A stretch of DNA of 40,132 nucleotides from Acidobacteriota bacterium (GTDB lineage: Bacteria > Acidobacteriota > Thermoanaerobaculia > Gp7-AA8 > JAHWKK01), in contig JAHWKK010000027.1 in NCBI GenBank assembly GCA_019347945.1, forward strand, positions 1 through 40,132. Direction: 5' to 3'. Made by a program: the position numbers and the translations under genes. This document shows positions 5,267 to 34,510 of the stretch, one piece after another; the stretch's first letter is position 1; every line of letters begins with the position of its first letter. The notes beneath the pieces are model-generated. The model had not been told where the DNA came from and made no database searches. It saw nothing but the letters and a program-made list of their open reading frames with translations.

Positions 5267-5680
5267 AAGAGACGCCGCGAAGGTAACCTCTCCGTACTCT
5301 CCCTTTCACTCACGAGCCCGTCCCCGGATCCTTCGCCGTCCTTCGACGGCTCATAATGAAACGACCACGAAATTGCGTGGACTTCGACCCACTTGCAGCG
5401 CTTCGCCTGGCCTGATGTCCCACCCTGCAAGGTCCCTCGCTTGCCCACCCGACCGCCCGCTCGGGACGACGTCGGTTTGAGTATGGGGCGATGGAGTTTT
5501 GCGGGCTCCGGTTTTCATTCCCGCTTCGCCGGCGCAACGCGACGGGGCGGCTCAGCAGGAGCTTCGCCCTCCCGGTGATGCTGGACATCACGCAAGCTCG
5601 TGGCGGTGCGGCTCGGGTAATTGTTTGGATGTCGCGAGATCCACGAGATCGACCGGACCCGGATCTCATAGAATTCATCG
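5267..5680. other. 414-base intergenic region with a REP-like copy
   Basis: No gene is supported here. Positions 5548-5579 hold a REP-like sequence, CAGCAGGAGCTTCGCCCTCC followed by CGGTGAT, that recurs in reverse orientation near 34321-34350 with about two mismatches. Similarity may continue downstream (AATTGTTTGGAT near 5619 against a like sequence beside the other copy). The promoter for the metallopeptidase gene at 5681 should lie at the right edge, but no convincing -35/-10 pair stands out. Confidence 0.6.
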
Positions 5681-21445: not shown

Positions 21446-22061
21446 AATGGGGCCGCACCTTTTCAGAGGCGGAAAGCCACTACCGAGCCGATCAAGCTGG
21501 TAGCTGAGGCTGCGAACCTTCAATGGGGCCGCGCCCTTTCAGACGCGGAAAGCTCAGGCGTCGAGTGGGTTGTGATCGACACGTTCTCCCTTCAATGGGG
21601 CCGCGCCTTTTCAGACGCGGAAAGAACTGCGAGCACTCAACGTCGTCCTTATCCCCGAGACGCTTCAATGGGGCCGCGCCTTTTCAGACGCGGAAAGGTG
21701 GCCCTCGGACGGGAGACACGTTCGGAAAGTGGAGCTTCAATGAGGCCGCGCCTTTTCAGACGCGGAAAGCCGGGATGTTACAGGGGGCGAGGCGATCCGG
21801 GCCAGCTCACCTTCAATGGGACCCCGCCTTTTCAGACGCGGAAAGGGCGGCGTCCGGGTCGAGGATCTCGGCGACGAAGCGCTTCAATGGGGCCGCGCCT
21901 TTTTAGACGCGGAAAGTGTACGAGCCCGGAACGGTGGTGGATCACGTGTGGCCGCTTCAATGGGGCCGCGCCCTTTCAGACGCGGAAAGGACGAAACGCA
22001 GGTGGGGGGGCAATCCTGTCTCGCGGCTTCAATGGGGACGCGCCTTTTCAGACGCGGAAAG
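21442..22061 (-). CRISPR. CRISPR array 1: 9 repeats, 8 spacers
   Basis: The repeats are 35 bases and begin at 21442 (degenerate), 21518, 21590, 21663, 21735, 21811, 21882, 21955 and 22027. On the plus strand they start CTTCAATGGGGCCGCG and end CAGACGCGGAAAG. Spacers are 41, 37, 38, 37, 41, 36, 38 and 37 bases, all unrelated. Most copies carry one or two point changes; those at 21590 and 21663 match the consensus. The crRNA strand is minus: the reverse complement ends CATTGAAG, as in type I handles, and folds into an 8-pair stem (CCGCGUCU/AGGCGCGG) with a GAAA loop. The worst repeat is at the left, leader-distal end. Confidence 0.97.
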
Positions 22062-22261
22062 GGCCCGCGTTCCCGAGCCCGTCAATACAAGCCAATTTCG
22101 TTGCTTTGCGAGCGGTTCGTGCCCCGCCCCGCTCGCCAGCGCACGGCCAGCGTGTTTCGATTATCAAAGACCCCGGAATCACGGCGACGAGCGGTGCCCT
22201 CCGACGAACTTCGGCGCCCCACCGTCGCGACACATTCCCGGTTCATTCTCGATTCTAACCT
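22062..22261 (-). promoter_or_regulatory. Leader of CRISPR array 1 (duplicated sequence)
   Basis: About 200 bases directly right of array 1 match the sequence directly right of array 2. Shared stretches include ATACAAGCCAATTTCG, GCCAGCGCACGGCCAGCGTG, a GGCGACGAGCGGT block and TCTCGATT(C/T)TAACC at the far end. Similarity stops there. The position beside each array on the 5' side of the transcribed strand fits a leader holding the promoter and integration signals. Because the two copies have diverged, duplication is not recent. Confidence 0.75.
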
Positions 22262-22580: not shown

Positions 22581-23486
22581 GTTCAATGGAGCCGCGCCCT
22601 TTCAGACGCGGAAAGTACGAAGTACAAACTGGGCAACAACTTCAACGACGTGCTTCAATAGGGCCGCACCTCTCCAGGCGCGGAAAGCTGAAACTCAGGA
22701 TCTACGTCAGCGACAACTTCGTGCTTCAATGGGGCCGCACCTTTTCAGGCGCGGAAAGTCCGACTGATGGTCATGCCCGCATCCCTCGCAGCAGCTTCAA
22801 TGGGGCCCCACCTTTTCAGGCGCGGAAAGAACCTCCGCTGTGAGAACTGCCGACGAATCGACGAGGCTTCAATGGGGCGGCACCTTTTCAGATGCGGAAA
22901 GCCCCGGACCCCGCCGTCTCAAGGTCAACTCTCGCCGACTTCAATGGAGCCGCGCCTTTTAGACGCGGAAAGCGACCGAAAGCCGGAAACCTCGGGGCGC
23001 CAGATTCCAGCTTCAATGGGGCCGCACTTTTTCAGGCGCGGAAGGAAGCTCTGCCGCTCACCTCGAACCAGTATGATCGCTTCAATGGGGGCCGCACCTT
23101 TTCAGACGCGGAAAGCCACCAGCCCCGGGTGCGCGGATGGTTCGCGCACATCGTGCTTCAATGGGGCCGCGCTTTTTCAGACGCGGAAAGCCGCAAGCCC
23201 GGAGTGCGGCATCGGCTGATGGATGTGCTCCTTCAATGGGGCCGCACCTTTTCAGGCGCGGAAAGGGTAACTTCGGGGTCCATCGACAGCGCGGCTTCGG
23301 CGCTTCAATGGAGCCGCACCTTTTCAGTTGCGGAAAGCCGGTGTTGCCGAGAAACGCGTTCCAGAGCCGGTTCCTTCAATGGGGTCGCGCCTTTCATTGG
23401 CGGAAAGCTGGTAGAAGTCCGCCCAGAGAATGCCCGGCCCGGCCCGGCCCAGCTTCAATGGGCCGCACCTTTTTAGGCTCGGAAAG
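22581..23486 (-). CRISPR. CRISPR array 2: 13 degenerate repeats, 12 spacers
   Basis: Repeats of 34-36 bases begin at 22581, 22653, 22724, 22795, 22867, 22939, 23011, 23080, 23156, 23231, 23303, 23374 and 23453. Spacers are 37, 36, 36, 37, 37, 38, 34, 40, 40, 37, 36 and 45 bases. The main variant differs from array 1 at two linked sites (CCGCACC and CAGGCG). Several copies have single-base indels: a lost base at 22939, 23374 and 23453, a gained one at 23080. The three rightmost, next to the leader, are among the worst. The last spacer is the longest and contains a CGGCC repeat. Transcription is leftward, as for array 1. Confidence 0.95.
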
Positions 23487-23690
23487 GCCCGCGGTTCCGA
23501 GCCCGTAAATACAAGCCAATTTCGCTGTCTCGCGAGCGGTTCGCCCCGTCACACTCGCCAGCGCACGGCCAGCGTGTTTCGACTGTCAAAGATCCCGGAT
23601 TTACGGCGACGAGCGGTCCTTCCGACAAACTTCGGCACTCCACCCCTCGCGACGCTTTCTCGGTTCATTCGCTTCTCGATTTTAACCCGG
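23487..23690 (-). promoter_or_regulatory. Leader of CRISPR array 2 (duplicated sequence)
   Basis: Homologous along its length to 22062-22261, starting with CGAGCCCGTAAATACAAGCC and ending near TTTTAACC at 23688. Its right boundary coincides with the end of the cas2-like coding remnant, the usual place for a leader in a cas-leader-array layout read on the minus strand. Confidence 0.75.
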
Positions 23691-23996: not shown

Positions 23997-25034
23997 TCAC
24001 CGAGCACGCTTCCGATGCTGCGGTTCGATTCGCTCCGACTTGATTGCGGAGAGCGGGAGTGCGCGCGTGAAGTTCATCGACCGGTCATCGATACGTCGCG
24101 ACGTGAAGACCTGCTCGACTCCCAGATGCGAAAGACCTCGCGGCACGAGCAGCTCCGGATGACCAAGCATTGCCCTGATCGCTGAGAGTGAGGCCTGTTC
24201 CCGCCAGATTGGCCAGGAGAACGTAAATCGGCCCCGATCGACTGCTCCCCCTAACACGCCGACCCGCACACGAGTTCTTCTCTGCACGGGGACGACGGTC
24301 ACCGCCGAGAGTCCAACCGAGGCCAGTCGATTGGCTCCGTGCTGGGTTCCAATCTTGTACTTCGTGTCCGTAGGGTCACCGGCCATCATCGCCCAGCGCG
24401 AATCTTCCTCTGCATCCCATCGGAATGAGGTAGTCAGATCATCGTCTCTGCTCCATCGGTCGAAAAGCGTCTGTCGTAGGCATTCCTCGGGCGAGTCGGC
24501 CGACAGCGTCCGTCCTGGCCGCTTCGTCGGAAGATCCTGTCGCGGCACCTGTGCCAACCGCTCGAGAAAATACTGCTGACCACCTCCGAACTGGAGGCAC
24601 AAAGGAGTAGGCTCTACCGAATCTTTCTTCAATCTTAGCGCCTGATCCGTCATGAGTGCTGCAAGCGCATCGGTCCGATCTCGGAACATAGGACTTGCAT
24701 CTGAGATACTTTCTTTTAGAAGTTTCTGGCACTCCTTCTGACTGAAGTCAATCAACTTCCTTCCGCCAAACCCGTGAGCTGGCAGGATGCGAGCAAGCCC
24801 GCTGATCGTCGAGCCAACGATATCGAGTGGGTCGGTCACGCAACTCACATGCAAAATCGGCCGCAACGGCGGATCGTCGAGGGACCATGAGACTCGCGCA
24901 CGAAGCTTCTCTTTCTCCGGCCGGTCACGGTCATCAGCTTCGAGCGCGCGCAACAGACCCAAAAGCGCGAGAAACGAGAGCAGGTTGTCAGGCTCGAACC
25001 CGTCGAGGCGGTGGACGCGGGTTGCATCACTCAT
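23997..25034 (-). CDS. Type I-G Cas8g / Cas3-extension family protein
   Basis: Probable large subunit of the type I-G effector complex, likely to take part in PAM recognition and Cas3 recruitment. The 345-residue product starts MSDATRVHRLDGFEPDNLLSF and continues LALLGLLRALEADDRDRPEK and WSLDDPPLRPILH, a start shared with the I-G Cas3-extension/Cas8u group; the rest is divergent. Its ATG overlaps the cas3 stop by four bases (ATGA). It is the last intact gene of the operon: cas4-cas1 and cas2 normally follow here. Assignment to Cas8 rather than an accessory subunit rests on position and on being the only candidate. Confidence 0.75.
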   Translation of the reverse strand: MSDATRVHRLDGFEPDNLLSFLALLGLLRALEADDRDRPEKEKLRARVSWSLDDPPLRPILHVSCVTDPLDIVGSTISGLARILPAHGFGGRKLIDFSQKECQKLLKESISDASPMFRDRTDALAALMTDQALRLKKDSVEPTPLCLQFGGGQQYFLERLAQVPRQDLPTKRPGRTLSADSPEECLRQTLFDRWSRDDDLTTSFRWDAEEDSRWAMMAGDPTDTKYKIGTQHGANRLASVGLSAVTVVPVQRRTRVRVGVLGGAVDRGRFTFSWPIWREQASLSAIRAMLGHPELLVPRGLSHLGVEQVFTSRRIDDRSMNFTRALPLSAIKSERIEPQHRKRAR

Positions 25035-27958
25035 CCATGCACCTCCATGGCTTTATCCTCGGAGGCCCGGTGATCAGCCAGCCGAAGGATGGCCTCCATC
25101 CGCGCCAGCTCCCAGACGCCGTAGCGCGCCTTCAACGTCTCGAACAGGGTCGGCCAATCGCGTCCCTTCCAGTCGAAGGCGAGTGATTGAGGTCCGACTT
25201 CCGGCGTTTTCTCCGTCGGATCGGAGTGCGGATAGAACGGCCTGCCAAATCCATGATGGGTTCCTACGAGCCACAACACCAAATCTGCGTCCGCGGCGGA
25301 TGTGAGACGCTCATGAGCCATCGCCTTTCGAACGGAAAGCGCTTCATGCCGCCAGTGCTCCGGAAGGCCAGAAGCGGCTCTCGCTTTCCGCGGCAGCGGT
25401 CTCGCCGATTTGGCAATCACCGTTTCGGGATCAGCCCCGAGCGGATCGCCGTAGTAAAGCCATCGTTGGAAGCGCTGATCGCTTTTTCCATGGTCATGAA
25501 GATAGCCTGCGAGACTGAGATCTCTGACGCGATCGGATGACAGACCCACCCTCGAGGCGAATGCTCCGGCCTTTTCTTCGACATCCTTGCTGTGCTGCTC
25601 AAGCGGAAGACAGTATCCCCCAATCGATCCCGCCAGATCGTCCTCGGTACTTTGCGTCGCCAGCCCCCTGGCTTCCGTAGCAGACGCCGCCGCGTCGCGA
25701 GACGGTCCGTCCTTCAGACCCAGCGGTGCTACGAACACGACGCCCCGCGGACGATCCTCCTCGCCCTTTCCGTAGAGATCGAAGTAGTGATGTACCGCGC
25801 CACGTCGAGCCTCGCTCAGCCTTCCGAGGTCACTCGCCAACTGCTCCTCCAGAGGCAGACCCAGAAGAACGTCACGAGCGTCTTTCCAGCGTGCGTTCTG
25901 AACCGAAGCGAGTGCGTCCGAGAGAGCCGTCTCCGACACATTCACCCCCGGGAGAGAGGGATGCACTCTCACCGAGAAGCGTCTTCCGGCGAACGGCGCG
26001 GCTGCCTGTGCTCCGACGTCGGCGACATCGGCATCACTCCCGGGCTTCCAGCCGTACTCGTCAAGACCCCCATAGCTAGCCGGAACGACGACGTTTTCGC
26101 CAGGCCGGATTTCGCCGGGCTCAATCCACTCCGATGCGTCGTCGTCCCCCTTCCATCGAAAGATCTGTCGTCGCGATGGTCGTCTGTTCTCGGAGTCTTC
26201 CCCCGCCTCGGAGGGTACATCCGCGAGATCCTCGATGCGATCGCTCGGACGCTCGAGCCATCGCCGCACCGCCCAGACGGGCAGCTCGATCGTCTCGCCA
26301 GACTGAGGGGGAACGAGCGTCAGCAGCCGCCGGCCTTCAGTGTTGCGGGGCTCGAGGTCCGCGCGCCATGCGACAGTGACCGAGTCGGGTGCGCGGTGCG
26401 GACCGTGGAGATATAGCGCCGAATCCGGATCGGCTGCAGGAATTGGTGAGGTGTGTGACAGCAGGTCGAGATGCGCAGGCATGAGTACCGGCGCGTCGTC
26501 TTTCGGCGCGAGCGCCGGCGGGTCCATTCGGACGGCAAACGTGCTCAACCCGAAGTCTACCCAACTCTTCTTCTTCGATCCCTGTGCCGCTGCCATTCGA
26601 TCCCACGCTTCTTTGATCGCCCCGCCGTATACGGGGTCCTCGTACTTCTTGTGGAGATCGGATGACATCGCGATAACCGCACCCCACGGGGTAATGTCGC
26701 GGCCGGCGCGATTCAGCCGTCCGAATCTCTGACGCAGGGAATCGATCGGCGCCGCTTCTGAAATGACCGCATCGAGATCGACATCGACGCCCGCCTCGAG
26801 ACACTGAGTCGCGACGACGACCATCGTCTTCTCGAGCTTTCTCGTCTCTGCGTCTGTCAAAGTCCGTGTGCGAATCGGTTTCAGTCGATCAGCGAGCTGA
26901 TCGCGATCGATGGATCTGGCTGGTCCAATCATCAGAATCAGGTCGATCTTCTCGTCATCAATCTCGCTCTGGTGTCGCTTCGTCAGTTCTTCGTACACCG
27001 AACGCGCCCGTGCGACGCGGTTGACGATGACGGCTATCGCGGGGCGGGCCGCACCGTTGTCCGAATTTTTGAAGTGTTCGGTTGCTTGTTCGACCGCACC
27101 GACCAGGGCCTCGGTTCGGATGGTAAGATCGCTCTCTACGGGTCCTTTCGTCTCGATCAATCGAACCTTTTTCGAAGCATCGAGGCGCTTTTGCAGGACC
27201 TGATGGTTCCGGTCGTCATCCTTCAGCGAAAACGGCAGAGCCGTGTGGTCGTCCTTCCGGTCACCCGGGGTCGCCGTCAGCAGTGCGAACGCATGCGGAG
27301 AGGATTCACGCGCCTCTCTCCACTTCTCCGACCGGTAAACGTCAATCCAGTGAAGCGTCTGACGGAACGGTTCGGCGAGATGCGCTTCGTCCAGAAGGAG
27401 CAGACAGTCGGCGCCGAGAAGACCTGCGTGCACAGGCTTCATCGAGTTGGTGACTCCATATCCGCGGAAGAGCAGGCGCGAACCGACCTGATCGACGGTC
27501 GAGCAGAGAATCGTCGGCTGCGACGGCGTTCGCGCCCAGTCGTGCTCCCGCGGGATACCCCCACGTAGCCGCCGCGCGATCAGGGGGCGCTCGCTCGATT
27601 CCGCGAGCCGCCCTAGCCTCGCCGCCACTTCAAGGCAGACCTCTCCTTTCGGAGATTGGAGGGCTTTTTCGATCGCAAGAGCCCTCGAGTATGCGTCGTC
27701 GACGACAAGTCTGCGATCCACGATGAATGCGATGCGCACCGGAGCTCGGCGCTCCCTTCCACGCTCGGCCTCGAGTGCGAGGTGGAAAAGCGCTACGTCC
27801 ATTGCTGCCGTTTTGCCGGACCCGGTCGGCAGGTCAAGCACCCTCGGCCATCGTCCGGTATCAAAAACCTCCCGCAAGAGTCTGCTTTGCCACGGAAAGG
27901 GATCGTAGCCGTGGAGTTCCTCGAAGAACTGCCCGAAGTTTTCGGTGGTGAGAGTCAC
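25031..27958 (-). CDS. cas3: Type I-G helicase-nuclease Cas3
   Basis: Effector nuclease-helicase that unwinds and degrades the DNA strand displaced by the crRNA complex. The 975-residue product has a superfamily 2 helicase first: Walker A LPTGSGKTAAMD at 43-54, LLLLDEAHLAEP near 190, FALLTATPGD, and motif VI RQRFGRLNRAGRD. The HD nuclease comes last, with YLHDHGKSDQRF (HD near 821-822), PEHWRHEAL and GTHHGFGRPFYPH. The helicase-then-HD order is typical of I-G. I start it at the GTG at 27958, which overlaps the csb2 stop by four bases. An upstream in-frame extension has no Cas3 homology. All motifs look intact. Confidence 0.93.
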   Translation of the reverse strand: MTLTTENFGQFFEELHGYDPFPWQSRLLREVFDTGRWPRVLDLPTGSGKTAAMDVALFHLALEAERGRERRAPVRIAFIVDRRLVVDDAYSRALAIEKALQSPKGEVCLEVAARLGRLAESSERPLIARRLRGGIPREHDWARTPSQPTILCSTVDQVGSRLLFRGYGVTNSMKPVHAGLLGADCLLLLDEAHLAEPFRQTLHWIDVYRSEKWREARESSPHAFALLTATPGDRKDDHTALPFSLKDDDRNHQVLQKRLDASKKVRLIETKGPVESDLTIRTEALVGAVEQATEHFKNSDNGAARPAIAVIVNRVARARSVYEELTKRHQSEIDDEKIDLILMIGPARSIDRDQLADRLKPIRTRTLTDAETRKLEKTMVVVATQCLEAGVDVDLDAVISEAAPIDSLRQRFGRLNRAGRDITPWGAVIAMSSDLHKKYEDPVYGGAIKEAWDRMAAAQGSKKKSWVDFGLSTFAVRMDPPALAPKDDAPVLMPAHLDLLSHTSPIPAADPDSALYLHGPHRAPDSVTVAWRADLEPRNTEGRRLLTLVPPQSGETIELPVWAVRRWLERPSDRIEDLADVPSEAGEDSENRRPSRRQIFRWKGDDDASEWIEPGEIRPGENVVVPASYGGLDEYGWKPGSDADVADVGAQAAAPFAGRRFSVRVHPSLPGVNVSETALSDALASVQNARWKDARDVLLGLPLEEQLASDLGRLSEARRGAVHHYFDLYGKGEEDRPRGVVFVAPLGLKDGPSRDAAASATEARGLATQSTEDDLAGSIGGYCLPLEQHSKDVEEKAGAFASRVGLSSDRVRDLSLAGYLHDHGKSDQRFQRWLYYGDPLGADPETVIAKSARPLPRKARAASGLPEHWRHEALSVRKAMAHERLTSAADADLVLWLVGTHHGFGRPFYPHSDPTEKTPEVGPQSLAFDWKGRDWPTLFETLKARYGVWELARMEAILRLADHRASEDKAMEVHG

Positions 27959-29412
27959 GACGACTTCTCCCGGAGCGGGCGGCAGAGGCCCAGCCCGAAA
28001 TAACGTCCCGCACCCAAAATCAGCGGGCCCTCGACGGGTTCCTCGAAGCGGATTACGGCGTGCACGAGCTGACGGCTGCTGAGAGACCGCGGCAGCCGCC
28101 AGCCTGTCCAACGTGGCGAGTTGCCGGAAGGGTAGGCTGAAGGGATTCCCTCCAGCGCGGAATGCTTGTCAGCAATGATCTGCGACGGTTCCGGAAATCC
28201 CACGTTCAGACAAGCGGCACTGATGAGCTTTGCGATCTCTTCATCCCGCTGCGCTCCGTTCGTCTTCAAATGGCGATCGAGAGCGATCGGAGTGACCGTT
28301 ACGAACATGCGCGAGGGCATCGTATATAGGCTCGGATTCAACGAAGTCGCACTCGCTTCAAAAGTGGGAGAAAGTTCGATCGAAAACGCCTGAGTAGCGG
28401 GGGTTCTCTCCCGCGTTGTCACCGTGAGAACTCGGCGACCGCGTCGTTCCTCGATCGGAGACACCTCACGCAGGGCGCGGAGAAAGTCACCATCGTCAAG
28501 AATGTTGCTGTCTGCCGGCGGAATCAGCGCGAAGCCCAGGACATGGCCGTCGGCATGAGGAAACCCGGCGAACGGGAGCGGGACGATCGCGAGGTGAGGC
28601 GACTGGCTTGGCGACTTGTCGGGTCGATGGCCGCTCACTACTTCGGGTATCCGGTCTTCGAGACCGATCCGGCGATATCCGCTGGAGATCGCGTCACGAA
28701 TAACCCGGCTGACAAGAGCCGCCGCTCGAAGGTCCCGCATTTCCCCGCCGATGTGCTCGAGGATCAGCCATCGATCAGCGAACACGCCGATTTGTCGTTG
28801 CTCTTTGGGCTGTGCGGTTCTCACGAGATCTCCCCGTTGCGGACGGCGTCCTCGCTCGAAATCTCTTCGAAGCTCCTCGAACCGTCCTGGATAGACCCGC
28901 CGCCCCGCCGGCTTCGCTTCCGCGAGCAAGGCTTCGTCGTGAGTGACTCGGAACCGGCACCGGGTGAGACTCGTGGAATGTCCGACGTACGCCGTTGCCT
29001 GCGCGAGCTGCTGGAGGTCACTCAAAGTTTCTTCATCAGGAATCGAATCGGCCCAGACGAATCGGACCAGGGGATCGGCCGGTCGGGAGGACGGAAATCG
29101 CCGCGGCTGTCGCGACCTGAGCTCCGGTAGCACCCCTCGCGCCACCTTCTTGCGATCACTCCTCGGATCGTTGGGCGGAACGAAAACGACCGGCGCCGTT
29201 CGCGGTTCAGAAGTCGTGGCCACGATCAGTGGCGGTGGAAGATGCTCCAGCCACTCGAGAGAGGCTCTGCGTTCGTCTCCGCGTGCTCCCCAGCTCGCGA
29301 CGAGTGCTGAGAAGACGCGGTCCGGCTGCGGTGGCCAATCGGGCTCTTCGCTGTCAGGACCTACGGCCGCGAAACAGACGCCTGAGAGATACTCGACTTC
29401 CAGAATCAGCAT
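27955..29412 (-). CDS. csb2: Type I-G Csb2 (Cas5-Cas6 fusion)
   Basis: Fusion that caps the crRNA 5' end (Cas5 part) and processes pre-crRNA (Cas6 part). The 485-residue product (GSU0054 group) begins MLILEVEYLSGVCFAAVGPD and has WPPQPDRVFSALVASWGARG, TAYVGHSTSLTRCRF, PHLAIVPLPFAGFPHADGHV and the C-terminal Gly-rich ILGAGRYFGLGLCRPL, as in RAMP proteins. No stand-alone cas6 exists in the window, so this must cut the repeats. Its ATG overlaps the csb1 stop by one base (TAATG) and its end overlaps cas3. Confidence 0.9.
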   Translation of the reverse strand: MLILEVEYLSGVCFAAVGPDSEEPDWPPQPDRVFSALVASWGARGDERRASLEWLEHLPPPLIVATTSEPRTAPVVFVPPNDPRSDRKKVARGVLPELRSRQPRRFPSSRPADPLVRFVWADSIPDEETLSDLQQLAQATAYVGHSTSLTRCRFRVTHDEALLAEAKPAGRRVYPGRFEELRRDFERGRRPQRGDLVRTAQPKEQRQIGVFADRWLILEHIGGEMRDLRAAALVSRVIRDAISSGYRRIGLEDRIPEVVSGHRPDKSPSQSPHLAIVPLPFAGFPHADGHVLGFALIPPADSNILDDGDFLRALREVSPIEERRGRRVLTVTTRERTPATQAFSIELSPTFEASATSLNPSLYTMPSRMFVTVTPIALDRHLKTNGAQRDEEIAKLISAACLNVGFPEPSQIIADKHSALEGIPSAYPSGNSPRWTGWRLPRSLSSRQLVHAVIRFEEPVEGPLILGAGRYFGLGLCRPLREKSS

Positions 29413-30641
29413 TACGAATCACCGGCGCCTTCGTCATCCTCTCCGCCCGCACCGGCAAGAGCGAGCTCCTGACTCTGGCGCACGATTTCGACTAGTTTGT
29501 CCTGAGGCTGGAGGCGCAGGGGCTCGTCGCGAAGGGCGAATCCGGCCATCTTCGCCGCAGCGCGCGCTTCTTCGTACAACGCGTGCGACGCGTCCAGATC
29601 GAGGGACATTTTGTTCGTCGACCCGTCTGACTGAACTTGTTCGATAGCAGCACGTCCGTCGCAGACGAGATCACAGCGCGAACGCAATGCATACCCGCGG
29701 GCATCCTGCTCGGCGAGAGCGACGAGGCCGAGTGCAGCAAGGAGGGCGCGACCGATTTCGTTTTTCTCTGGTGAGCCGAACCGAAGTCGGCGAAGCGCCG
29801 CGAAGCTGAGCACGAAGGTGTGCTCCAGATGGTCACAAGTGATGCCGAGGGCCTGGATTGATGGAGCGATATTTCCATGATTGATCTCGGACGGCCGCAC
29901 TTTTTTGGCTTTCTTGCCCGCTTCAGATTGATCGGTGCTCCACCCGGACTCACCTTTGAAAACTTCAACCTTTCGCAGAACGCCAAGCGGGTCGATGCGG
30001 CTCCCCGTTCTCCGTGCCGCTGTTCGGACGACCAGTTCTCCGGTGCGAGTGACTAAGGATTCTTCAACCGGTACGTCGATGGCGACAATCTCCGAGGTCA
30101 GACTTCGTGCGAACTTCGCTCCAAGCGCGCCACCTTCACCCGTTGAGTGCCACGCGCCAAACAGAAGCGCCGTCGGCGACGCCTCCAGAAGGCTTGATGC
30201 ATCCTGGAGCTTCGCCTTCGCCAGCCGCTTGCCCGTCTCACTCTTCATGAATGGCTCGCCGTCGAGAAGACTGTCACGCAGAATCGCGTCGTACACTCGA
30301 TGCGGAGCATCAAGTGATGTGATCTCTCCGATTCCGTCCAGCCCCGCCTTCGAGAAGTCGACGACCACGTACGGCGCCTTCAAGCCGTTCCGAATCGCCT
30401 CGAGTAGTGATTCTTCGAGACGGTTCGCCTGTGATTGCACGCTGTCGACCAGAACGCACCATTTCTCTTCACCGTTCACGCGACGCCGCTCGTAGACATG
30501 GCGAGGCGGCCCGTTCTTCTCCTCTGCCGGGTACGTCGGTGGAAAGATCTTATCGCCCTTTCCTCCCACGGGCTGCAACACCTGCCTGCGGCGGAACGCC
30601 GCGTCGTCACTGGTCATCGTTCTAAGTTCATCGAACTTCAT
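29412..30641 (-). CDS. csb1: Type I-G Csb1 (Cas7 backbone)
   Basis: RAMP protein forming the backbone along the crRNA. The 409-residue product (GSU0053 group) starts MKFDELRTMTSDDAAFRRRQ and has KIFPPTYPAE, HRVYDAILRDSLLDGEPFMKS and LLFGAWHSTGEGGALGAKFA followed by RSLTSEIVAIDV, the family hallmark. The ATG at 30641 has a near-perfect AAAGGAGG six bases upstream, the strongest ribosome-binding site in the operon, as expected for the most abundant subunit. It is the first cas gene; a HIRAN-domain gene lies 104 bases upstream on the same strand. Confidence 0.92.
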   Translation of the reverse strand: MKFDELRTMTSDDAAFRRRQVLQPVGGKGDKIFPPTYPAEEKNGPPRHVYERRRVNGEEKWCVLVDSVQSQANRLEESLLEAIRNGLKAPYVVVDFSKAGLDGIGEITSLDAPHRVYDAILRDSLLDGEPFMKSETGKRLAKAKLQDASSLLEASPTALLFGAWHSTGEGGALGAKFARSLTSEIVAIDVPVEESLVTRTGELVVRTAARRTGSRIDPLGVLRKVEVFKGESGWSTDQSEAGKKAKKVRPSEINHGNIAPSIQALGITCDHLEHTFVLSFAALRRLRFGSPEKNEIGRALLAALGLVALAEQDARGYALRSRCDLVCDGRAAIEQVQSDGSTNKMSLDLDASHALYEEARAAAKMAGFALRDEPLRLQPQDKLVEIVRQSQELALAGAGGEDDEGAGDS

Positions 30642-30745
30642 TGCTCCTCCTTTGGGGACGTCCCGCTTGTTGTAACGGTTATCGTTCGGCACCCCGGAAC
30701 GCGGCGCGCGCAAGGTTTGATTGCGAGCCCACCGATCCCCCACCT

Positions 30746-31177
30746 TTAGCCACGCTCCACCTCAACGGTGACAGTCAGCCGTTCCCACGGCGGTGCTGGG
30801 GCTGGGTGGATCGCGGCCACGCGAGCCCGCAGCCCAAATCCGGCGTCAGCGAGGCGCGAAGGGATCGCGTTGGACTTCCTCGGGACGTAGCCGAGCTTCG
30901 TGCCGCTCAGCGTATATACCGCGATCGCTCCCGAGTCGTGCACATTTCCGGGCTCGCGCCTAAGATCGAGTTCACTGCCGACACCGAGGCCGCCGAGTGC
31001 CGCGTTGCCTCCATCATGGCGGAAGCCCGCGACCTGCGTAGTAAGAAGCATCGCTGAGGGTGTGGGGCTCCTGGCGGCAAGACGAGTGCCGAGACTGACG
31101 ATGGGAAGCGCGGCAAGGCCTTTCAGAGGCCAGCGCCTGCTGACGCCCCTCGGTTTCGTCCGCGACGCGTGTGACAT
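30746..31177 (-). CDS. HIRAN-domain protein with Tat-like N terminus
   Basis: The 143-residue protein has a HIRAN domain at about 44-141: TTQVAGFRHDGG, LDLRREPGNVHDSGAIAVYT and TKLGYVPRKSNAIPSRLADA. In the helicase HLTF this fold binds 3' ends of single-stranded DNA; small stand-alone bacterial forms are uncharacterised. Residues about 13-36 read SRRWPLKGLAALPIVSLGTR, like a twin-arginine signal (SRRxFLK with Pro for Phe), so export is possible. The ATG at 31177 has GGAGG upstream. It is on the same strand as the cas operon, 104 bases before csb1, with no clear terminator between. Whether it belongs to CRISPR function is unproven. Confidence 0.8.
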   Translation of the reverse strand: MSHASRTKPRGVSRRWPLKGLAALPIVSLGTRLAARSPTPSAMLLTTQVAGFRHDGGNAALGGLGVGSELDLRREPGNVHDSGAIAVYTLSGTKLGYVPRKSNAIPSRLADAGFGLRARVAAIHPAPAPPWERLTVTVEVERG

Positions 31178-31342: not shown

Positions 31343-32353
31343 TCAGGAGCGTTCGCGGCGGACGAATGCTTCGATCTCGACGAGGAGCTCGGAACGGCAG
31401 ATCTCGGCGTTCAGGTAGAGCACCGAGGCAGGGTCGACCAGCTGCTCGATGATCGATGCGATCTCCGGCTGATCGCTCGCATGCCGGACATAGACCTTGA
31501 GCTTTGGATGAAGGCCCGGCGAGCCGAGCCCGGCACCGGGACCGAACGCTTCGCTGATGACCGCATCGAGATTCCGGATCGTCTCGCTCACCTGACCGGC
31601 GACATCGCCGACGTGAACCGTCTCGTGTCCGACGATGCTCGCGGTTCCCGAGATGAAGAGCGTCTCCGCATCGTAAAGAGCGGCTCGCGCGAACGACGGA
31701 CTTCGCGGTCCGTACCGCCCCGGATAATGAAAGGCGCTGACCTGTCTCGGGTTCTCGATGAACCGGGGAGCTTCGCTCGAGCCGAGCGCGACAACGCTCA
31801 GCAGGCCCGACCGGGACCCGAGTGCACTCCCCGCCGGCAACTCCCGGTCCATGTCGAATCCCTTCTCGAGAAACGCTTCGAACCTTCCGACACAGAATCG
31901 CTGGTAGCGTTCGATCACCTCGTTCTCGTTGATACCGGGAAAGTAGTTCCACACGCGAACGAGATGAGGGGATCCGACCGTGCGCATGAAATCGATCAGC
32001 TCGCCGTAGAGGCGCCGCGTCGCGGAACAGAGGTCCTCGCCCGGTTCCGCCTGCAGCGTCGCGAAAGCGGTCCCCCCGCTGACAGCCGCCCGGATGTTGC
32101 CCTCCCGGATCTCGCGAACCGGTCGGTCGCTCGCCAGGAGCTCACCGCCGCTCTCCGATCCGAGCGGAGGCAGTGCGATCCGGAGCGCCGAGCCCGGCGC
32201 CGGACCCTCGCCGCCGAACCGAACCTCGCCCAGAGCGTGGCCGAACCCAGGGACCATCCGATCTCTCGACGCGAAGCCGTACTCGACGCGCGCGGGTGCA
32301 GCGGTCGCGGCAATCGGACTTCGTTCTGACGAGCTCTCGGTTCGGGAAGACAT
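31343..32353 (-). CDS. Chorismatase-family protein (FkbO/Hyg5/XanB2-like)
   Basis: Enzyme family with a RidA-like fold that removes pyruvate from chorismate, giving hydroxybenzoate or dihydrodihydroxybenzoate products. The 336-residue protein has HLVRVWNYFPGINE, ERYQRFCVGRFEAFLE, LPAGSALGSRSGLL, ENPRQVSAFHYPGRYGPRSP and SGTASIVGHETVHVGD, then a RidA-type end VLYLNAEICRSELLVEIEAF. The ATG at 32353 has GGGAGG about nine bases upstream. It stands alone, with no quinone, pigment or polyketide genes around, so which product it makes cannot be told. It ends 28 bases from the period-9 repeat. Confidence 0.8.
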   Translation of the reverse strand: MSSRTESSSERSPIAATAAPARVEYGFASRDRMVPGFGHALGEVRFGGEGPAPGSALRIALPPLGSESGGELLASDRPVREIREGNIRAAVSGGTAFATLQAEPGEDLCSATRRLYGELIDFMRTVGSPHLVRVWNYFPGINENEVIERYQRFCVGRFEAFLEKGFDMDRELPAGSALGSRSGLLSVVALGSSEAPRFIENPRQVSAFHYPGRYGPRSPSFARAALYDAETLFISGTASIVGHETVHVGDVAGQVSETIRNLDAVISEAFGPGAGLGSPGLHPKLKVYVRHASDQPEIASIIEQLVDPASVLYLNAEICRSELLVEIEAFVRRERS

Positions 32354-34284: not shown

Positions 34285-34320
34285 GTTCTCGAGAAAAGCG
34301 CGCCCTCGCGATCAAAACAA

Positions 34321-34510
34321 TCACCGGGAGGGCAAAGCTCCTGCTGATCCGCACCGTTGCGTTCCACTCGAATGCAACGTTAGACCGGGAGGGCGAGCCT
34401 CCGGCGAGCCGCAGCTGGCGGGATCGATGGGTGACGCCAACCCCGCACGGATCGTTGCGGGTTTCAGGTTCGGTTCTGAGGATCGCGGCTCGCCGGAGGC
34501 TCGCCCTCCC
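34321..34510. repeat. REP-like palindromic repeats
   Basis: Three related units lie in the 352-base gap before the ATP-grasp gene. One at about 34321-34353 (TCACCGGGAGGGCAAAGCTC...) is the inverse of the copy at 5548-5579. Two others, 34387-34412 and 34485-34510, are perfect 26-base inverted repeats of each other (starting GGGAGGGCGAGCCTCCGG) with a 72-base loop. Each half also holds its own small stem, CTCCGGCGAG-like. No transposase is present. The rest of the gap holds no gene. Confidence 0.85.

Follow-up and report, generated by a model that had tools for sequence, protein, structure and literature searches.

A small HIRAN-domain protein, probably exported, encoded next to a type I-G CRISPR operon of an Acidobacteriota bacterium

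The locus described here belongs to a stretch of 40,132 nucleotides from an Acidobacteriota bacterium (GCA_019347945.1, contig JAHWKK010000027.1), referred to below as the window. A small HIRAN-domain protein is encoded on its minus strand, directly upstream of a CRISPR operon (Table 1). The open reading frame begins with the ATG at 31177, which is preceded by the Shine-Dalgarno sequence GGAGGGAGGAACC at a spacing of 4 nt. A second possible start, the ATG at codon 43 immediately ahead of the HIRAN domain, would delete the N-terminal region and has no Shine-Dalgarno sequence at a usable distance. The Pfam HIRAN profile PF08797 matches residues 46-139 of the protein (profile positions 5-92 of 96) with 53.2 bits, against a cut-off of 24.7. 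The reading frame and this match confirm that the small HIRAN protein reported in an earlier note on this DNA corresponds to a real gene, the sole HIRAN match in its genome (3.7 Mb, 99.65% complete). The neighboring csb1 is co-directional; its most probable start codon is the ATG at 30641, preceded by the Shine-Dalgarno sequence AAAGGAGGAGCA. With this start, the distance of 104 bases between the two genes given in that note also holds.

Table 1. Features of the HIRAN gene and its surroundings (positions in the window)
Feature	Position	Strand	Evidence or remark
Small HIRAN protein gene, 143 aa	30746..31177	-	PF08797 E=2.8e-14; Shine-Dalgarno; fold match 3K2Y and HLTF HIRAN
HIRAN domain, placed by profile search	30758..31042	-	
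Tat-like N-terminal signal region, codons 1-44 (R14 R15, hydrophobic stretch 18-29)	31046..31177	-	
Intergenic gap of 104 nt (HIRAN stop to csb1 start)	30642..30745	.	No stable fold beyond shuffles
csb1 (Cas7g), neighbor, not counted in HIRAN function	29412..30641	-	PF09617 E=1.7e-50; TIGR02570
Type I-G effector operon	23997-30641		
CRISPR array	22059-22195		
CRISPR array	23483-23617		
Chorismatase-like gene, FkbO/Hyg5-type	31343-32353		NCBIfam model matched below cut-off
Inverted repeat, 44 nt	5536-5579 / 34320-34363		

The CRISPR system is assigned to type I-G by csb1, csb2, cas3 and a Cas8g-type protein. It is apparently effector-only, without adaptation genes of its own, since no match to Cas1 was found anywhere in the genome. 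Two CRISPR repeat arrays lie near the operon. Similar flanks follow each of them (stretches of 61 and 75 nt, 87-89% identical), which suggests the duplication of an array together with its leader. On the other side, the upstream neighbor of the HIRAN gene is the chorismatase-like gene, which has host-like codon usage. The locus had also been described as part of a repeat-bounded island. A long inverted repeat does enclose it; however, the same repeat encloses the housekeeping genes smc and aat and therefore does not delimit a mobile island.

The AlphaFold model, built from an alignment of the window protein with proteins of the HIRAN loci from genomes and no plasmid-derived rows, is confident over residues 41-143 (pLDDT >90 for the most part, lower at some positions) and of low confidence over residues 1-40. 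Foldseek matches it to the bacterial structure 3K2Y and to the HIRAN domain of HLTF, as expected of a HIRAN fold. The best match in both structure (E=4e-8) and sequence (1.6e-17) is 3K2Y, the HIRAN protein lp_0118 of Lactobacillus plantarum. In the deposited 3K2Y chain of 109 residues the profile is matched from residue 7 onward, which leaves no room for a comparable signal. The HIRAN domain of human HLTF (PDB 4S0N, 4XZF, 5BNH) has the same fold as the window protein (Foldseek E about 1e-5), whereas the latter is a stand-alone, probably exported protein without helicase or RING domain.

In HLTF, the bound dinucleotide sits between Y72 and Y93, and the cavity has been probed with an N90/N91 double mutant (PMC4666394). 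The window residues R53, H54, N78, H80, D81, Y97 and R100 align to HLTF R71, Y72, N91, Y93, D94, H110 and K113, respectively, the HLTF numbers being a hand count from the printed alignment. The equivalents of N91 and D94 are thus kept and the position of K113 stays basic, whereas the two stacking tyrosines are replaced by histidines and the position of N90 is occupied by a glycine (G77). Judged by this comparison, the pocket for 3' ends seems to be partly kept, and binding of single-stranded 3' ends by the window protein is plausible.

The N terminus of the window protein contains SRRWPLKGLAALPIVSLG, with a twin arginine (R14 R15) followed by a hydrophobic stretch whose best 12-mer has a Kyte-Doolittle value of 1.73. 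The Tat-like signal proposed earlier is therefore present in its main elements; on the other hand, the strict Tat pattern RR.[FGAVML][LITMVF] is not matched (RRWPL), as a proline occupies position +3. The pattern is matched by each of the seven relatives whose N termini are comparable. The order double arginine, hydrophobic stretch and HIRAN domain is found in the genomes G012, G063 (two copies) and G509 and on plasmids of Pelagibacterium, Haematobacter and Paracoccus. All six rows of the alignment A2 share the double arginine, and the Haematobacter and Paracoccus proteins are two additional examples. Like the window protein, these Tat-type proteins combine a signal-like N terminus with a HIRAN domain in 115-150 aa; those on plasmids are annotated only as "HIRAN domain-containing protein". 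A cas operon was found next to the window gene but next to none of these. The genome of the window encodes TatC (E=3.2e-69). Because the relatives carry a double arginine and a hydrophobic stretch at the same place and TatC is encoded, export of the window protein is likely.

Other relatives differ in their N termini. Two proteins from Pseudomonadota metagenome-assembled genomes (L023 and L024) lack the double arginine, although their N terminus is hydrophobic and signal-like, and Bacillota relatives show no visible signal, both judged by eye and not with a signal-peptide predictor. In a tree of 19 rows the Tat label needs 2 changes, against a mean of 5.9 after shuffling, and is thus clustered; the window row itself is unplaced. 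The HIRAN domain of the window is up to 50-51% identical to probable cytoplasmic relatives and 32-43% identical to most Tat-type relatives.

The earlier note had offered the gene as a possible new CRISPR accessory and had named a lack of recurrence beside cas operons in other genomes, along with a separate promoter and unrelated expression, as counting against this idea. The phylum sample comprised 396 genomes, with HIRAN in 14 and Csb1 in 32 (42 csb1 copies listed). Of the 42 copies, the one in the window is alone in having a HIRAN gene on its contig. Within the class, HIRAN was found in 8 of 149 genomes and Csb1 in 14 of 147; the genome of the window is the only one with both, and it is also the only member of its genus and family in the genome set searched. 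A scan of 44 csb1 loci with a profile of the Tat-type HIRAN proteins gave no match except that of the window, and a repeat search of the phylum with the same profile added no Tat-type member. Beyond the phylum the survey covered plasmids and phages. None of the 20 plasmid records with csb1 was among the HIRAN matches, and in five annotated plasmid examples csb1 is followed by csb2 while the gene upstream of csb1 is different each time. The csb1 closest to that of the window among four compared (L098, 69% identity) has no HIRAN gene upstream. The linkage of HIRAN to csb1-csb2-cas3 is consequently not recurrent in the phylum sample, the class or the csb1 plasmids. As far as recurrence goes, the outcome of the check proposed in the note therefore speaks against an accessory role.

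The DNA between the genes was likewise compared. No conserved DNA was found upstream of csb1 in four relatives; the sole match longer than 8 nt was one of 13 nt on the opposite strand (L095). The gap and the region upstream fold no better than shuffled sequences, and neither a consensus promoter nor a minus-strand terminator was found in the HIRAN-csb1 region. The codon usage of the HIRAN gene is intermediate between those of the host and the cas genes; the gene may have arrived together with the latter. The window gene is probably a chance neighbor of the type I-G operon and not a CRISPR component, because related operons lack a HIRAN gene and related HIRAN genes adjoin many other genes.

These other neighborhoods are diverse. 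On the plasmids of two alphaproteobacteria, Pelagibacterium and Haematobacter, the Tat-type HIRAN gene lies directly after a manganese catalase gene (L064:7157-8402 and L111:5075-6264). In G012 the HIRAN gene and a Ni-SOD gene are some 1.1 kb apart, and in Paracoccus the HIRAN gene is upstream of Ku and LigD. In the two Pseudomonadota genomes mentioned above, the exported HIRAN gene stands just before a SIS-domain (diaA-like) gene (L023:8017-9741, L024:2210-3320), followed in L023 by a BON-domain (dolP-like) gene. The best reading of these contexts is that exported single-domain HIRAN proteins form a scattered family beside many different genes, whose members probably bind 3' ends of nucleic acids outside the cytoplasm. 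The genome G063 carries a duplicated cassette (L056:8268-10418 and L057:388-2538) that consists of a Tat-type HIRAN gene and a gene for a secreted Ig-like protein of 585 aa. The copies are 93.2% identical over 2151 bp, their homology ends at the first start and the last stop, and they are the product of one recent duplication. Each lies directly upstream, on the same strand, of a different defense operon, namely Hma and a BREX-type set with a DrmD-like helicase, BrxA and BrxB.

The explanation judged moderately probable is that the window gene product is a small HIRAN protein most likely exported to the periplasm or the cell surface, probably as a folded domain and by the Tat pathway. Its pocket would there bind single-stranded nucleic acid at the 3' end, and its role would be the handling of DNA ends in the cell envelope, e.g., of released or incoming DNA under stress. 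The position ahead of csb1 would be incidental; at most, a transcript would be shared with the cas genes, without a shared function. Of the two alternatives in the earlier note, the exported DNA-binding protein thus fares better: the clear Tat-like signals of the relatives back the export, while the pocket is only partly kept. The broken Tat pattern, the closer similarity to probable cytoplasmic relatives, the unplaced row in the tree, the intermediate codon usage and the two defense operons headed by the G063 cassettes count against this explanation. The first two points, together with the low model confidence of residues 1-40, favor instead a cytoplasmic protein whose N terminus does not function as a signal (the domain is 50% identical to that of the signal-less L018). 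This protein would bind 3' ends of DNA during replication or repair and have no connection with CRISPR. Such a protein is unlikely, if still credible: a good Shine-Dalgarno sequence precedes the long start only, the double arginine and the hydrophobic stretch align with those of clear Tat-type relatives, and the genome has TatC.

The duplicated G063 cassette is the reason for retaining a role in defense among the rivals. Exported HIRAN proteins would in that case be general accessories that bind DNA ends outside the cytoplasm, in the periplasm or at the cell surface, and are recruited to the heads of anti-phage operons, here type I-G. The two cassettes, which head different defense operons and whose homology stops at the gene boundaries, agree with this proposal, as does the similar placement of the window gene. 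Nevertheless, the two copies go back to a single duplication, other exported HIRAN genes are found near catalase, SOD, diaA-like or Ku-LigD genes, and the type I-G loci examined show no recurrence. The proposal is unlikely. Its broader form, an unrecognized extracytoplasmic layer of DNA-end-binding proteins repeatedly recruited to the heads of type I-G, Hma and BREX-type operons and meeting the ends of phage or incoming DNA before the cytoplasmic system acts, is speculative and improbable. An accessory specific to the type I-G system of the window, binding the 3' ends made by Cas3, would suit the co-directional placement 104 nt upstream of csb1, the region in which no consensus promoter was found and the intermediate codon usage. 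It is highly improbable, as the gene is missing from all other csb1 loci examined and its probable export would separate the protein from the products of Cas3. Finally, the window HIRAN domain is matched by the PADLOC models PDC-M03B for HipN/HipL, HIRAN proteins that are fused to HipS-like or kinase domains and associated with HipA-type kinases; in HipN the HIRAN domain is C-terminal (PMC8262856). The HIRAN domain is common to both, whereas the fusion is not: the match is confined to the HIRAN part, no HipS-like domain was detected in the window protein, and the flanking genes are csb1 and the chorismatase-like gene, with no adjacent HipA-type kinase. A HipN-type antitoxin, or the remnant of a HIRAN-HipA pair, is hardly credible here.

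Bacterial HIRAN domains are known to be linked with HipA-type kinases and with deoxydinucleotide nucleases near defense genes (PMC8262856, PMC11706625). The literature searched, mostly open-access, contains nothing on HIRAN together with type I-G and no description of exported or twin-arginine HIRAN proteins, which is a weak sign of novelty. In that literature, the characterized HIRAN domains have intracellular DNA ends as their targets. A probably exported form that recurs in several bacterial lineages consequently raises the question of which 3' ends it meets outside the cytoplasm. The interest of the locus is modest and rests with these exported proteins rather than with CRISPR biology, for which the case is mainly cautionary: a single gene next to a cas operon is no evidence of an accessory.

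HIRAN relatives are also present in phages and viral contigs; L113, the sole viral protein inspected, has no signal. For a possible secreted nuclease gene downstream of the HIRAN gene in G509, Pfam gave no support, even with the threshold relaxed. The same genome has a second, partial HIRAN copy on another contig (L083:2697-3146 and L084:844-1068; 225 bp at 92% identity). Near the intact copy there is a phage-type integrase gene.
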